From NCBI GenBank assembly GCA_003222155.1, contig QHUU01000068.1, positions 1 to 64,000 of the forward strand: a stretch of DNA of 64,000 nt. The letters run 5' to 3'. The notes beneath the pieces were generated by a model that saw nothing but the letters and a program-made list of their open reading frames with translations, did no database searches and was not told where the DNA came from. The stretch's first letter is position 1. Every line of letters starts with the position of its first letter. Position numbers and translations under genes: made by a program. Source of the stretch: Gemmatimonadota bacterium. GTDB lineage: Bacteria > Gemmatimonadota > Gemmatimonadetes > Gemmatimonadales > GWC2-71-9. Below, one piece after another: positions 47,967 to 54,277 of the stretch.

Positions 47967-48822
47967 TCTGCACTGTCACTCCACGGCGTCGGATGGAGAG
48001 TATCCTCCGGCCGAGGTGGCGCAGCGCGCCCACGGGGCGGGTCTCGTCGCCATCGCGCTGACCGATCACGACACCACCGGCGGCGTTCCCGAAGCCGCGC
48101 ACGCGGGCGCGGCGCTCGGCGTCCGCGTCGTGTCGGGGTGCGAGTTCAGCGTCAAGGCGCCCTGGGGCGAGCTGCACCTGCTCGGCTACTTCCTGCCGCC
48201 CGGGCACCCGCGGCTCGAGGAGTTTCTCGCCGGCACGCGGGCGGCGCGCCAACGCCGCGCCGAGCAGATCGTCGCACACCTGCGCCGGCTCGGCGTGGTC
48301 ATCGACCTGGCGGACGTGATGGCGGCGGCGGACGGCGGCGCGCTGGGCCGCCCGCACGTGGCTCGGGTGCTGGTCGAGCGCGGCGTGAGCAGCGATATCA
48401 ACGAGGCGTTCGGACGCTACCTGGGTCGTGGCCGGCCGGCGTACGTCGAGAAGCCCCTGCCGACGCTGCGCCAGGTCACCGACCTGCTTCACGCGGTGGG
48501 CGGCCTCGCCGTGGCGGCGCATCTGGGCGACCGCGGCAGCGAGGGCCAGATTCGGCAGTTTCAAGCGGATGGCCTCGACGGGCTCGAGGTGCGCCACCCC
48601 AGCCATTCGGAGGCGACCGAGCGGCGGCTCGCCGCGCTGGCCGAGCGCCTCGGGCTCGTCATCAGCGGCGGCTCGGATTGGCACGGCGACACGGAGCTGG
48701 GCGACTCACACGCCGGGCTGGGCGACATGGACGTCCCGCTCGAATGGCTTGAAAAACTCGAACAGCGTCGAGCGACGGCGTCTCGCGAAACCGTCGCGCA
48801 GAACCGTAAGGACGACTCATGA
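47947..48822 (+). CDS. PHP-domain phosphoesterase
   Basis: A 291-residue metal-dependent phosphoesterase of the PHP family (YciV/RNase AM-like length). Metal motifs: V-D-L-H-C-H-S-T-A-S-D-G at the N-terminus, A-L-T-D-H-D-T, 'GCEFSV', 'AAHLGDRG' and the C-terminal S-D-W-H-G-D. Likely acts on nucleoside 3',5'-bisphosphates or short RNA; not decidable here. GTG at 47947 gives the first metal motif with four residues to spare. Its stop overlaps the next ATG. Confidence 0.83.
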   Translation: MPTAHVDLHCHSTASDGEYPPAEVAQRAHGAGLVAIALTDHDTTGGVPEAAHAGAALGVRVVSGCEFSVKAPWGELHLLGYFLPPGHPRLEEFLAGTRAARQRRAEQIVAHLRRLGVVIDLADVMAAADGGALGRPHVARVLVERGVSSDINEAFGRYLGRGRPAYVEKPLPTLRQVTDLLHAVGGLAVAAHLGDRGSEGQIRQFQADGLDGLEVRHPSHSEATERRLAALAERLGLVISGGSDWHGDTELGDSHAGLGDMDVPLEWLEKLEQRRATASRETVAQNRKDDS

Positions 48823-49259
48823 GCGAGCTGTTGGCAATCGGCAGCAACGCACCCGCGTTCACCGCCCCGGCCTCGGACGGCAAGACCTATCGTCTGGCGG
48901 ACGTTCTCAAGGGCGCGCACGTCGCCTTGGTGTTCTATCCGGGAAACAACACCCCCGGCTGAAACCGCCAACTCTCCGCCGTGCGCGACGAGATGGCCAA
49001 GTTCCAGACAGCCGGGATCCAGCCCTTCGGCGTGAACCCCGCCGGCGTGGACAGCCATGCCGGCTACGTCCGCAAGCTGGCATTCAATTTTCCGCTGCTC
49101 TCCGATCCGGAACGCGCGATCGCGCGCGCGTACCACGCGCTCAAGGACGACGGCAAAGGGATCCAGCGCACCGTGTACGTCGTGAGCAAGGACGGGACGA
49201 TCGCGTTCGCGCAGCGCGGCGCACCGCCGGTCGACGAGATCGTCGCCAGTGCCCCCTGA
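48819..49259 (+). CDS. peroxiredoxin (PrxQ/Bcp-like), predicted selenoprotein with Sec48
   Basis: A 146-residue thiol/selenol peroxidase interrupted by an in-frame TGA at 48960-48962. Before it: A-L-V-F-Y-P-G-N-N-T-P-G; after it, same frame: N-R-Q-L-S-A-V-R-D-E. Bcp/PrxQ enzymes read F-Y-P-x-x-x-T-P-G-C here, so the TGA sits exactly on the peroxidatic cysteine. The remainder (V-N-P-A-G-V-D-S-H, 'FPLLSDPERAIARAYHALKDD', 'TVYVVSKDGTIAF') is intact Prx. A hairpin suited to SECIS follows. No resolving cysteine near Sec. ATG overlaps the PHP stop; the end overlaps the SDR gene. A broken gene is the alternative reading, weakened by the second case at 53735. Confidence 0.85.
48967..48997 (+). promoter_or_regulatory. 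predicted bacterial SECIS hairpin of the peroxiredoxin mRNA
   Basis: Starts 4 nt after the TGA. Stem GCCA/TGGC, 2-nt bulge AC, TCTC/GAGA, opposite bulge AC, CGC/GCG, apical loop CGTGC. Eleven base pairs in all. The loop begins 17 nt after the TGA and has G as its second base, within the known range for SelB-binding bacterial SECIS elements. Confidence 0.65.
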
Positions 49260-51130: not shown

Positions 51131-52099
51131 ATGACTCCCAACCGTGCCAACGGATACGACGTGATCATCGTCGGTGCGGGGCCCGCAGGGTTGTGCGCCG
51201 CGATGTACGCCGGGCGGGGCATGCTGAAGGCGCTCACGATCGAGCGGGGCGCGCCCGGCGGCGAGCTCTTGAACACGGACCTGATCGAGGACTACATCGG
51301 GTTCGAGAGCATCAAGGGCTGGGAGCTGGCCCAGAAGATGACCGAGCACGCCAAGAAGTTCGGTGCGGAGATCATCACCGACACGGTGGAGCGAATCCGC
51401 CGCGGTGCGGATGGCCGGTTCGACGTCGCGACCACGCGGGGCACCACGTATCGTGCGCCCGCCGTGATCCTCACCGCCGGCGGCACGCCCGTGAAGCTCG
51501 GGGTGCCGGGGGAGAAGGAGCACGCGGGAAAGGGTGTGTCGTACTGCGCGGTGTGCGACGGCGCGTTCTTCAAAGGTGAAGTGCTCGCCGTCGTGGGCGG
51601 CGGCGACGCGGCCGTGGAGGAGGCGGACTATCTCACGCGCTACGCGACCAAGGTGTACATCGTCCATCGGCGCGACCAGCTGCGGGCGTCCAGGATCATT
51701 CAGGAGCGCGCCTTCGCGAACCCCAAAATCGAGATGGTCTGGAACAAGCGCGTGCTCGAGATCGGGGGCACGGAGCGCGGGACCGATCGCCTCGTCCTCG
51801 AGGACACGCTGACGGGAGGGCGCGCCACGCTGGCGGTCGGGGGCGTCTTCATCTTCGTCGGCTTCAAGCCCAACTCCGGACTGGTCGAGGGGCACGCGAA
51901 GCACGACGCGGCCGGGTACTTCATCACCGACGAACGAATGATGACCTCCATCCCGGGGCTGTTCGCCGCGGGCGACGTGCGCAGCCAGCTCACGCGCCAG
52001 ATCACCACGGCGGTGGGCGATGCGACCACCGCGGCGATCGCCGTGGAGAAGTATCTCGCGGGCTTGCGGGAGCGCGCGAAGGCGGGCGTCGCCTCATGA
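51131..52099 (+). CDS. trxB: thioredoxin-disulfide reductase
   Basis: A 322-residue FAD/NADPH flavoenzyme. FAD motif G-A-G-P-A-G at 15-20, redox pair C139-A-V-C142-D, NADPH motif 'VVGGGDAAVEEADYL' (~155-169), 'VHRRDQLRA' and C-terminal FAD motif 'GLFAAGDVRSQLTRQ'. It lies between the two predicted selenoprotein genes in the same operon and is the obvious source of electrons for them through a thioredoxin. No thioredoxin gene is in the window. Confidence 0.94.
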   Translation: MTPNRANGYDVIIVGAGPAGLCAAMYAGRGMLKALTIERGAPGGELLNTDLIEDYIGFESIKGWELAQKMTEHAKKFGAEIITDTVERIRRGADGRFDVATTRGTTYRAPAVILTAGGTPVKLGVPGEKEHAGKGVSYCAVCDGAFFKGEVLAVVGGGDAAVEEADYLTRYATKVYIVHRRDQLRASRIIQERAFANPKIEMVWNKRVLEIGGTERGTDRLVLEDTLTGGRATLAVGGVFIFVGFKPNSGLVEGHAKHDAAGYFITDERMMTSIPGLFAAGDVRSQLTRQITTAVGDATTAAIAVEKYLAGLRERAKAGVAS

Positions 52100-52734
52100 A
52101 GGTCGTGCCGATCCCGAACGGCCAGTTCGTCGAGAACTGCTATCTCGTCATCGACGAAGCCGGCGGTGAATGCGCGGTCATCGACCCTGGGGAGGAGGCG
52201 GGCTTGATCGCCCACAAGGTGGCGGCGGCGGGCGTACACCCCGTCGCGATCTGGCTGACCCACGCCCACATCGATCACGTCGTCGGCGTCCCTCGGCTCA
52301 AGGCCGACACCGGAGCGCCCGTCTACCTCCACCCCGGCGACCGGATGCTCTACGATCATGTGCCGGACCAGGCGGCGGCCTTCGGCCTGCGGGCCGCTCC
52401 GCTGCCTGCGCCCGATCACACCCTCGTGCACGGCGATGTGTTGCGGGTGGGCGCGCTCGAGTTCCGGGTGCGACACGCCCCCGGTCACTCGCCGGGAAGC
52501 GTCGTGTTCGAAGGACAGGGCGTCGCGTTCAGCGGGGACGTGCTGTTCCAGGGCTCGATCGGACGGACCGACCTGCCCGGAGGAGACTTCGAGACGCTGA
52601 TGCGCAGCATCGAGCGCGAGTTGCTTACGCTGCCCGATTCGACCATCGTGTACTGCGGGCATGGACCGGAAACCACCGTGGGACGCGAGCGCCGAGCCAA
52701 CCCCTTCCTCACCGGCGCCCATCGGCTCGGCTAG
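52096..52734 (+). CDS. MBL-fold hydrolase (glyoxalase II-like)
   Basis: A 212-residue metallo-beta-lactamase-fold hydrolase. Zinc motif L-T-H56-A-H58-I-D60-H61, further ligands in 'HAPGHSPGS', 'FSGDVLF' and 'VYCGHGPET'. Resembles YcbL/glyoxalase II proteins that hydrolyse thioesters. ATG overlaps the trxB stop by 4 bp. Confidence 0.9.
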   Translation: MKVVPIPNGQFVENCYLVIDEAGGECAVIDPGEEAGLIAHKVAAAGVHPVAIWLTHAHIDHVVGVPRLKADTGAPVYLHPGDRMLYDHVPDQAAAFGLRAAPLPAPDHTLVHGDVLRVGALEFRVRHAPGHSPGSVVFEGQGVAFSGDVLFQGSIGRTDLPGGDFETLMRSIERELLTLPDSTIVYCGHGPETTVGRERRANPFLTGAHRLG

Positions 52735-52852
52735 AGCGCCGCGACCGACCTGCCTGCGTTGCGGGGTCGAAGTCCGGCCCCGGCCGTGGGGCTGCCGGAA
52801 CCCGTGCCCCAACTGCGGCTTCAATTATCCGCTGGGCGACTGTTCCGACTGA
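52661..52852 (+). CDS. small zinc-ribbon protein
   Basis: Up to 63 residues. The C-terminal half is a compact cysteine-rich unit: C31-L-R-C34-G, C45-R-N-P-C49-P-N-C52-G-F-N-Y-P-L-G-D-C61-S-D. The ATG at 52661 lies inside the MBL gene, giving a 74-bp overlap, so a later start is possible, although no ATG or GTG is obvious before the first cysteine pair. Conserved-looking cysteine spacing argues for a real gene. Confidence 0.55.
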   Translation: MDRKPPWDASAEPTPSSPAPIGSARAPRPTCLRCGVEVRPRPWGCRNPCPNCGFNYPLGDCSD

Positions 52853-52862
52853 GCCGGGCGGC

Positions 52863-53738
52863 ATGATCAACCACCTGCTGGCACTGGCGCTCCTGGGAGT
52901 GGACTGCGTCGTCCGCGCCTGGCGCATCCAGCTCGTGACCTGGACGGCGGGTGGCCGGCTGTCGTTCGGCGACGCGTTCCGCCTCAATCTGTACGGCGAA
53001 GCCGCTTCGCAGCTCACCCCCAACCGCCTGGGAGGCGAGCCGGCGCGGTTCCTCGGCCTCACCGAAGCGGGGCTGCGACCCGTCACCGGCATCGTGGCGA
53101 TCGGCGTCGAAGTCGCGTGCGAGTGGCCGGTGTTCCTGCTGGCGGGGGCGGCGCTGTTCGCCTACTACGTGCCCGATTGGCGGGACGCCGCCCGGACCTG
53201 GCTGCACCGCCACCGGGCGGGTGAGCTCGTCACCGTCGAGATCATCGCGCTCATCGTCCTCGTGACGGCGTATCTATTGCAGCGGCTGGCGCGTGCGGGG
53301 TTCATCCGCCACCGGGTGCGCCGCCAGTGGCGCGTCGCGTGGGCGCACGTGCGCCGCGCCCCGCGGTGGGCGCTGGGCGCGGGGGCGCTCCTCACCGTGG
53401 TGAGCATCGTCGCGCGGGCGCTCATCCTGCCGGCGCTCGCGTGGGGCATGCCGGGCCGACCCCCGTTCGCGGAGATGTTCTACGGCGCGCTGGCGCTGCT
53501 GCACGCGCCCCTGGTGGTGCCGCTCCCATCCGGTGGCGGCGGCCTCGAGGTTGCCTTCCTGAACGGTTTCGCCGGAGATTTCGGTGCGCGCCAGGTGACG
53601 ATGCTGTTGCTGTGGCGGTTCTACACGGCCATCCTCCTGACCGGGCTCGGCGTCTACGCTCTGGTCCGGTCCATTGGTTATCGGGCCGCCGTCGAGGTGT
53701 TCAAGATCGGTTGGGGCAAGCGAAGAGAGGCACAATGA
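52863..53738 (+). CDS. flippase-like integral membrane protein (UPF0104/LPG synthase TM family)
   Basis: A 291-residue protein with about seven TM segments. 'FRLNLYGEAASQLTPNRLGGEPARFLGLTEAGL' is the conserved core of the lysylphosphatidylglycerol-synthase TM region family, and 'VPLPSGGGGLEVAFLNGFAG' matches its second motif (P-x-P-G-G-x-G-x-x-E). The N-terminus is shorter than usual by roughly one helix. Function in lipid or polyprenyl-sugar handling is inferred. Its stop overlaps the next ATG. Confidence 0.8.
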   Translation: MINHLLALALLGVDCVVRAWRIQLVTWTAGGRLSFGDAFRLNLYGEAASQLTPNRLGGEPARFLGLTEAGLRPVTGIVAIGVEVACEWPVFLLAGAALFAYYVPDWRDAARTWLHRHRAGELVTVEIIALIVLVTAYLLQRLARAGFIRHRVRRQWRVAWAHVRRAPRWALGAGALLTVVSIVARALILPALAWGMPGRPPFAEMFYGALALLHAPLVVPLPSGGGGLEVAFLNGFAGDFGARQVTMLLLWRFYTAILLTGLGVYALVRSIGYRAAVEVFKIGWGKRREAQ

Positions 53739-54277
53739 CCAATCCGCGGATCACGCCGCTGACGCCGGATCAAGCTGCACCCGAGGTGCAGCCTATTTTC
53801 GAGACCTACCTGCGGGAGCGCGGCAACATCCCCAACATGTTCCGCACAGTGGCGCTGCGCCCGGGGCACCTGCGGACCATGATCGCGCACTTCCGCACGG
53901 TCATGAACGAAGGCACCGTGCCGCCCCTGCTCAAGGAGCTGTTGTGGGTGCGGATCTCGCACCTGAACCGCTGCCGCTACTGACTCGGCTCCCACACTGT
54001 CTTGGCAAGACAGCGGGGAGCGAGCGCCGAGCTGGTGGACGCGATCCAGGACCGGGGCGCGCACGAGGCGATCGCGCGCCTCGAGCCCGGCTGGCGGGCG
54101 GCGCTCGAGTACGCCGACGTGATCCATCGCTCGGGGCACGAGGTCACGGACGAGCTGTACGGGCGGCTGCGCGCCGCGTGGGACGAGGGACAGATCGTCG
54201 AGATCACCCTGGTGATCGGGATGACGGAGTACTTCAATCGTTTCAACGACAGCCTGCGGGTGGAGCCGACGAAGTGA
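53735..54277 (+). CDS. AhpD/carboxymuconolactone-decarboxylase-family protein, predicted selenoprotein with Sec83
   Basis: A 180-residue AhpD-like peroxidase/reductase crossed by an in-frame TGA at 53981-53983. The AhpD catalytic pattern is E...C-x-x-C...H; here E68 ('LLKELLWVRISHLNRC'), C80-R-Y-[TGA 83]-L-G-S-H87. The TGA replaces the second, peroxide-reactive cysteine, and the frame continues with family sequence ('VLARQRGASAELVDAI', 'EVTDELYGRLRAAWDEGQIVEITLVIGMTEYFNRFND', read in parts). A strong SECIS hairpin follows directly. ATG overlaps the flippase stop. Probably reduces peroxides, or an organic hydroperoxide, with electrons from thioredoxin or a lipoyl donor. Confidence 0.92.
53984..54024 (+). 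promoter_or_regulatory. predicted bacterial SECIS hairpin of the AhpD-like mRNA
   Basis: Begins at the base after the TGA. Stem CTC/GAG, bulged G, GCTCCC/GGGAGC, small internal loop ACA/CG, then a perfect 7-bp stem CTGTCTT/AAGACAG capped by loop GGC. Sixteen base pairs; the apical loop opens with GG 20 nt after the TGA, just as SelB-dependent SECIS elements do. Confidence 0.85.

Follow-up and report, generated by a model that had tools for sequence, protein, structure and literature searches.

An AhpD-like gene of Gemmatimonadota with an in-frame TGA, predicted to encode a selenoprotein and linked to a peroxiredoxin gene of the same kind

Does the TGA that interrupts an AhpD-like gene in the genome of a soil-dwelling Gemmatimonadota bacterium end translation, or is it read as selenocysteine (Sec)? 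The gene lies on the forward strand of the 64,000-nt stretch of DNA analyzed here, referred to as the window, and a first-pass annotation made from the letters of this stretch had proposed the second answer. The TGA stands in frame as U83 of the motif C80-R-Y-U83-L-G-S-H87 (Table 1). When it is read through, the frame encodes 180 residues, with the sequence ...HLNRC80RYU83LGSH87TVL... around the TGA, followed by 97 more codons of AhpD/CMD-family sequence and a TGA stop at 54275-54277. In the sequence ATGA, its start codon shares bases with the stop codon of the membrane-protein gene that precedes it. The frame, together with the family sequence beyond the TGA, bears out the proposal that this codon takes the place of the second cysteine in the AhpD motif C-x-x-C...H. 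As detailed below, the predicted SelB-dependent insertion of selenocysteine at U83 is very strongly supported by computation.

Table 1. Features of the window discussed in the text, with the evidence for each.
Feature	Position	Strand	Evidence
PrxQ/BCP-like peroxiredoxin selenoprotein gene (predicted), U48 = TGA 48960-48962	48819..49259	+	TGA scan, homologue survey
Thioredoxin reductase, candidate electron source	51131..52099	+	TIGR01292, 356 bits, over cut-off; conserved neighbour
MBL-fold hydrolase (glyoxalase II-like)	52096..52734	+	Profile matches; conserved neighbour
Upstream LPG_synthase_TM (YbhN-like) membrane protein, true start inside span	52170..53738	+	PF03706, E=2.2e-20
AhpD-like (CMD domain, peroxidase-related) selenoprotein gene (predicted), Sec at 83	53735..54277	+	Frame, PF02627, AlphaFold2 model
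Active-site stretch C80-x-x-U83-x-x-x-H87	53972..53995	+	Alignment; M. tuberculosis AhpD residues from PMC3141380
Predicted Sec codon TGA (U83), replacing the second Cys of CxxC	53981..53983	+	Homologue comparison
Full predicted SECIS hairpin, outer part weakly conserved	53984..54024	+	Folding, pairing counts
Upper stem-loop of the predicted SECIS (7-bp stem, GGC loop), conserved, with covariation	53997..54013	+	Folding, covariation

A covarying hairpin directly after the TGA

Folding confirms the SECIS hairpin described in the first-pass annotation. Its upper stem, CTGTCTT/AAGACAG (53997-54003 paired with 54007-54013), closes the loop GGC (54004-54006), while the lower stems GCTCCC/GGGAGC and CTC/GAG extend the structure to its full length. 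The 50 nt from the TGA have a minimum free energy (MFE) of -24.5 kcal/mol and a z-score of -3.46, with one of 200 shuffled sequences equally stable. Published constraints on bacterial SECIS elements (PMC13188914) specify a loop of 3-9 nt with a G within its first two positions, an upper stem of 4-16 bp, 16-37 nt from the UGA to the loop, and an MFE of -7.5 or lower. The hairpin lies within all of these limits, its 3-nt loop beginning with G, its upper stem having 7 bp, its loop standing 20 nt from the TGA and its MFE being the value given above. An Rfam scan of the 64,000-nt window returned tRNAs only, a result that says little against a bacterial SECIS because such elements vary by gene.

Comparison among relatives, which the annotation had proposed as a source of support, revealed the compensatory changes that it anticipated, including stems that have been rewritten. 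The upper 7-bp stem is paired in 99.4% of cells and the inner CCC/GGG segment in 89%, whereas the outer lower stem (GCT/AGC and CTC/GAG) is much less conserved, at 65%. Among 24 near sequences, both sides have changed with pairing retained at three pairs (alignment columns 18-32, 20-30 and 22-28). The resulting covariation score is 0.361, compared with 0.198 in shuffles (none of 500 as high) and at most 0.17 in slid controls. Several of these compensatory changes are also visible in the encoded residues, as V to A, Q to R and R to G. All seven stem pairs are present in 35 of 36 distinct 3' flanks of the TGA type, in which the loop is GGC or GUC and is kept even where the stem has been replaced, for instance by CCGCGCU/AGCGCGG or CGCAGCU/AGCUGCG. 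The 7-pair stem was found in none of the six flanks of orthologues with cysteine at this codon, where at most two of the seven pairs form. Plain-shuffle z-scores discriminate poorly between Sec forms (mean -1.7, widely spread) and Cys forms, whereas register-specific pairing does discriminate.

Third codon positions provide a further line of evidence. They differ in 9% of cases across codons 87-94, compared with 35% upstream and 34% far downstream. The frequent changes downstream show that selection acts on the residues encoded after the TGA, and the drop in codons 87-94 points to extra constraint on the hairpin; this is the pattern expected for an RNA element within a coding region. During translation, SelB carrying Sec-tRNA-Sec(UCA) would bind the hairpin immediately 3' of the UGA, and the bound complex would then place selenocysteine at residue 83.

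Exchange of Sec and Cys across the phylum and the decoding machinery

The codon at U83 is TGA in all 23 Gemmatimonadota homologues drawn from other assemblies of the GTDB collection (54-92% identity) and TGT in a Spirochaetales outlier. In a tree with six changes of the Sec/Cys label, the fragment L039 stands as Cys despite its TGA, so that this number is an overestimate and carries no weight here. We then consider the survey of 395 genomes of the phylum, in which an orthologue clade defined by E below 1e-40 comprises 38 sequences. Of these, 32 contain a single TGA inside the frame, in one case together with an additional TAG, and six contain no internal TGA. Read directly, all six carry TGC at the U83 codon; together with the TGT of the outlier, they supply the cysteine that the annotation expected homologues to show in this column. 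The annotation would also have been refuted by TGC or TGT at 53981 on resequencing, a prospect contradicted by the independent relatives that carry TGA. A plasmid search yielded distant relatives only (<60% identity).

The machinery for selenocysteine is present in the host genome, which spans 3.45 Mb in 130 contigs and is 95% complete. The tRNA-Sec scores 80.9 bits and has the anticodon TCA, selA scores 554 bits, selB 351 bits when counted with a neighbouring piece, and selD 396 bits. The selD gene (L042, G000 contig 93, 86883-87815) contains one in-frame TGA, so that the selenophosphate synthetase it encodes is probably a selenoprotein itself. All four of selA, selB, selC and selD, whose absence the annotation had named as evidence against its proposal, were found. 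Across the 38 genomes, tRNA-Sec is over its cut-off in 30 of 32 TGA-type and one of six Cys-type genomes (Fisher p = 2e-4, in a test that treats related genomes as independent), selA in 25 of 32 and one of six, and selB in 27 of 32 and one of six, respectively. None of the TGA-type genomes lacks all three. Of the six Cys-type genomes, five have none of them over the cut-off, among them one with an estimated completeness of 100% (G033); the exception (G213) has Cys at the codon and has kept the Sec machinery. The clade represents an unusually clean natural experiment, in which Sec with a hairpin and Cys without one are matched to the retention and loss of the Sec machinery.

These data allow other readings of the codon to be weighed. 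The TGA might specify an amino acid other than selenocysteine, through an altered genetic code or a tRNA for cysteine with the anticodon UCA, and because homologues have Cys in this column, insertion of cysteine would also yield a working protein. This is very improbable, as the Cys forms lack the hairpin and the genome encodes a canonical tRNA-Sec as well as selA, selB and selD; moreover, TGA serves as an ordinary stop in the same genes, the AhpD-like gene itself included, and with the Sec machinery present a change of genetic code was rejected. Hardly credible at all is a real stop, produced in an otherwise normal AhpD-like gene of the CxxC type by a recent nonsense mutation or by a sequencing or assembly error: it agrees with the output of a gene caller, and is opposed by the identical TGA in dozens of other genomes (on which sequencing error and pseudogene were both rejected), by the coding constraint downstream and by the covarying hairpin.

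Decoding as selenocysteine, the central claim of the first-pass annotation, is thus backed by the cysteine column of homologues, the compensatory stem changes and the presence of selA, selB, selC and selD. Its warning that standard callers would split the gene also holds: with TGA treated as a stop, a caller would divide it into one ORF on the 5' side, which ends at 53983, and another on the 3' side, which begins at 54002. A caller that knows TGA only as a stop ends the gene at residue 82, and the enzyme would consequently be missed in a widespread soil phylum.

Protein family, fold and probable chemistry

The CMD domain (PF02627) matches residues 44-128, a span that includes the TGA, with E=9.5e-12 and 45.2 bits against a gathering threshold of 23, and the AhpD core model TIGR00778 scores 46.5 bits over a cut-off of 27.8. 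Two further models match along the full length at scores below their curated cut-offs, and for this reason no exact subfamily name is given. The first, TIGR01926 (peroxid_rel), reaches 69.7 bits against 81.8; the Gemmatimonadota clade resembles the AhpD-like selenoproteins of TIGR01926/COG2128 in its fold family, its CxxU motif, the position of Sec at the second Cys and the SECIS right after the UGA, but differs in this score. The second, NF053654 (GroundWater_YciW, YciW-related (seleno)protein), is the best NCBIfam match (positions 5-177) and has a name that allows for Sec; at 77.1 bits against 310, our protein is a relative of this family and not a member.

An AlphaFold2 model built with 23 homologues has a mean pLDDT of 93.5, and its best match in the PDB is 6k40, an AhpD-family protein of D. 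radiodurans (TM about 0.86), with other peroxidase-related proteins similar. E68, C80, U83 and H87 are invariant in the alignment of near homologues. In M. tuberculosis AhpD, a five-residue proton relay has been described that includes Glu118, Cys130, Cys133 and His137 (PMC3141380), and the spacing of the four residues here (12, 3, 4) is the same. The protein thus shares with M. tuberculosis AhpD and 6k40 both the fold and the layout Glu-x11-Cys-x2-Cys/Sec-x3-His, although those two proteins have Cys in place of Sec. Another difference concerns His132 of M. tuberculosis AhpD, whose position is occupied here by Tyr82, as in PA0269, a replacement that, it has been suggested, may weaken peroxidase activity (PMC3141380).

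Peroxidase or disulfide-reductase chemistry is probable for this protein. Judging from AhpD chemistry, Sec83 would be the attacking (peroxidatic) residue on a peroxide or disulfide, activated by His87 and Glu68, and Cys80 would resolve it through a selenenylsulfide. A thiol or thioredoxin-type donor would then reduce the selenenylsulfide, with electrons that the linked thioredoxin reductase may supply via thioredoxin.

Proteins with the CMD fold can have functions other than peroxidase. One such function, compatible with a selenoprotein, is quite conceivable here, if short of probable: the protein may act mainly as a disulfide/selenenylsulfide oxidoreductase or adaptor, perhaps reducing the peroxiredoxin encoded nearby. 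The tyrosine at position 82 would fit this role, as would the conserved neighbours, a putative Sec-peroxiredoxin and a thioredoxin reductase, and AhpD of M. tuberculosis is itself an adaptor for AhpC (PMC3141380). Against it stands the survey of the phylum, in which homologues of the peroxiredoxin occur in many genomes without this AhpD orthologue, which indicates that the peroxiredoxin does not need it. Furthermore, enzymes of the PrxQ type are usually reduced by thioredoxin.

A linked peroxiredoxin gene with its own TGA

Coding-like read-through of TGA was sought throughout the window, and 15 sites were listed, including the one at 53981 and another at 48960; on inspection by eye, the remaining candidates resemble gene junctions or non-coding frames. 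The frame around the latter site reads FYPGNNTPG-U-NRQLSAVRDE, with the motif T-P-G-U, and its matches to PrxQ/BCP-type profiles are below the cut-offs. Among the best 56 homologues in the phylum survey, 53 have the TGA and three are free of stops, one of which was read and has TGC (L120); 12 weaker homologues lack the TGA. In 27 TGA-type copies, third positions immediately after the TGA change in 9% of cases, compared with 38% at equally conserved codons elsewhere. A hairpin is predicted after the TGA in most copies, and it is shorter than that of the AhpD-like gene.

In a large part of the phylum, this gene is tied to the AhpD-like gene through the thioredoxin reductase and the MBL hydrolase. 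These two lie upstream of the AhpD-like gene, and a fumarase/aspartase-type lyase downstream of it, in most relatives, Cys types included. In one relative (L026, QHUD01000014.1), the AhpD-like gene is inverted with respect to its neighbours and has retained both TGA and hairpin. In 17 of the genomes listed, the AhpD-like and peroxiredoxin genes share a contig and lie no more than a few kb apart: 14 pairs have TGA in both genes, three in neither, and none is mixed. The three pairs without TGA belong to one genus, g45 (L067, L068, L070 and L120; G329, G033 and G313), where searches for tRNA-Sec and selA gave no matches. A coordinated change of both genes from Sec to Cys with loss of the Sec trait is likely in this genus.

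The linkage tentatively suggests a partly selenium-based, peroxide-reducing relay of AhpD, thioredoxin reductase and Sec-peroxiredoxin, in which the AhpD-like selenoprotein may also reduce the linked peroxiredoxin, in the way that AhpD serves AhpC in mycobacteria. It is possible, though doubtful, that electrons pass from NADPH through thioredoxin reductase and the AhpD-like selenoprotein to the peroxiredoxin in one dedicated pathway, with both terminal catalysts retained as selenoenzymes throughout Gemmatimonadota and converted to Cys forms jointly in lineages that lost the Sec machinery. The Sec-peroxiredoxin encoded nearby opens the way to testing at the level of a pathway.

As the first-pass annotation stated, AhpD-like C-x-x-U selenoproteins have been described in other bacteria, and they have been a listed family since 2005, when they were reported from the Sargasso Sea (PMC1088965). 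They were among the most abundant selenoproteins in the GOS data in 2008 (PMC2398784) and a review from 2026 places them under TIGR01926 (PMC13188914). Peroxiredoxin selenoproteins with TxxU are equally known already. A single GOS read bears neighbouring genes for a peroxiredoxin-like and an AhpD-like selenoprotein (PMC2398784), and compared by kind of gene, the two lie near each other there as they do here; in Gemmatimonadota, however, the linkage recurs in many genomes and takes in thioredoxin reductase as well. What is new is the clade-wide occurrence in Gemmatimonadota, and a search of the open-licence literature found no paper on this AhpD-U clade or on its conserved linkage to the peroxiredoxin.

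More distant CMD/AhpD-like sequences with an in-frame TGA also occur in the same phylum (L087, L088, L089, L090 and others). Their families show the motifs CRYUIRAH, CRYULRSH and CFYUINHH, and Gemmatimonadota seem to be rich in AhpD-like selenoproteins.
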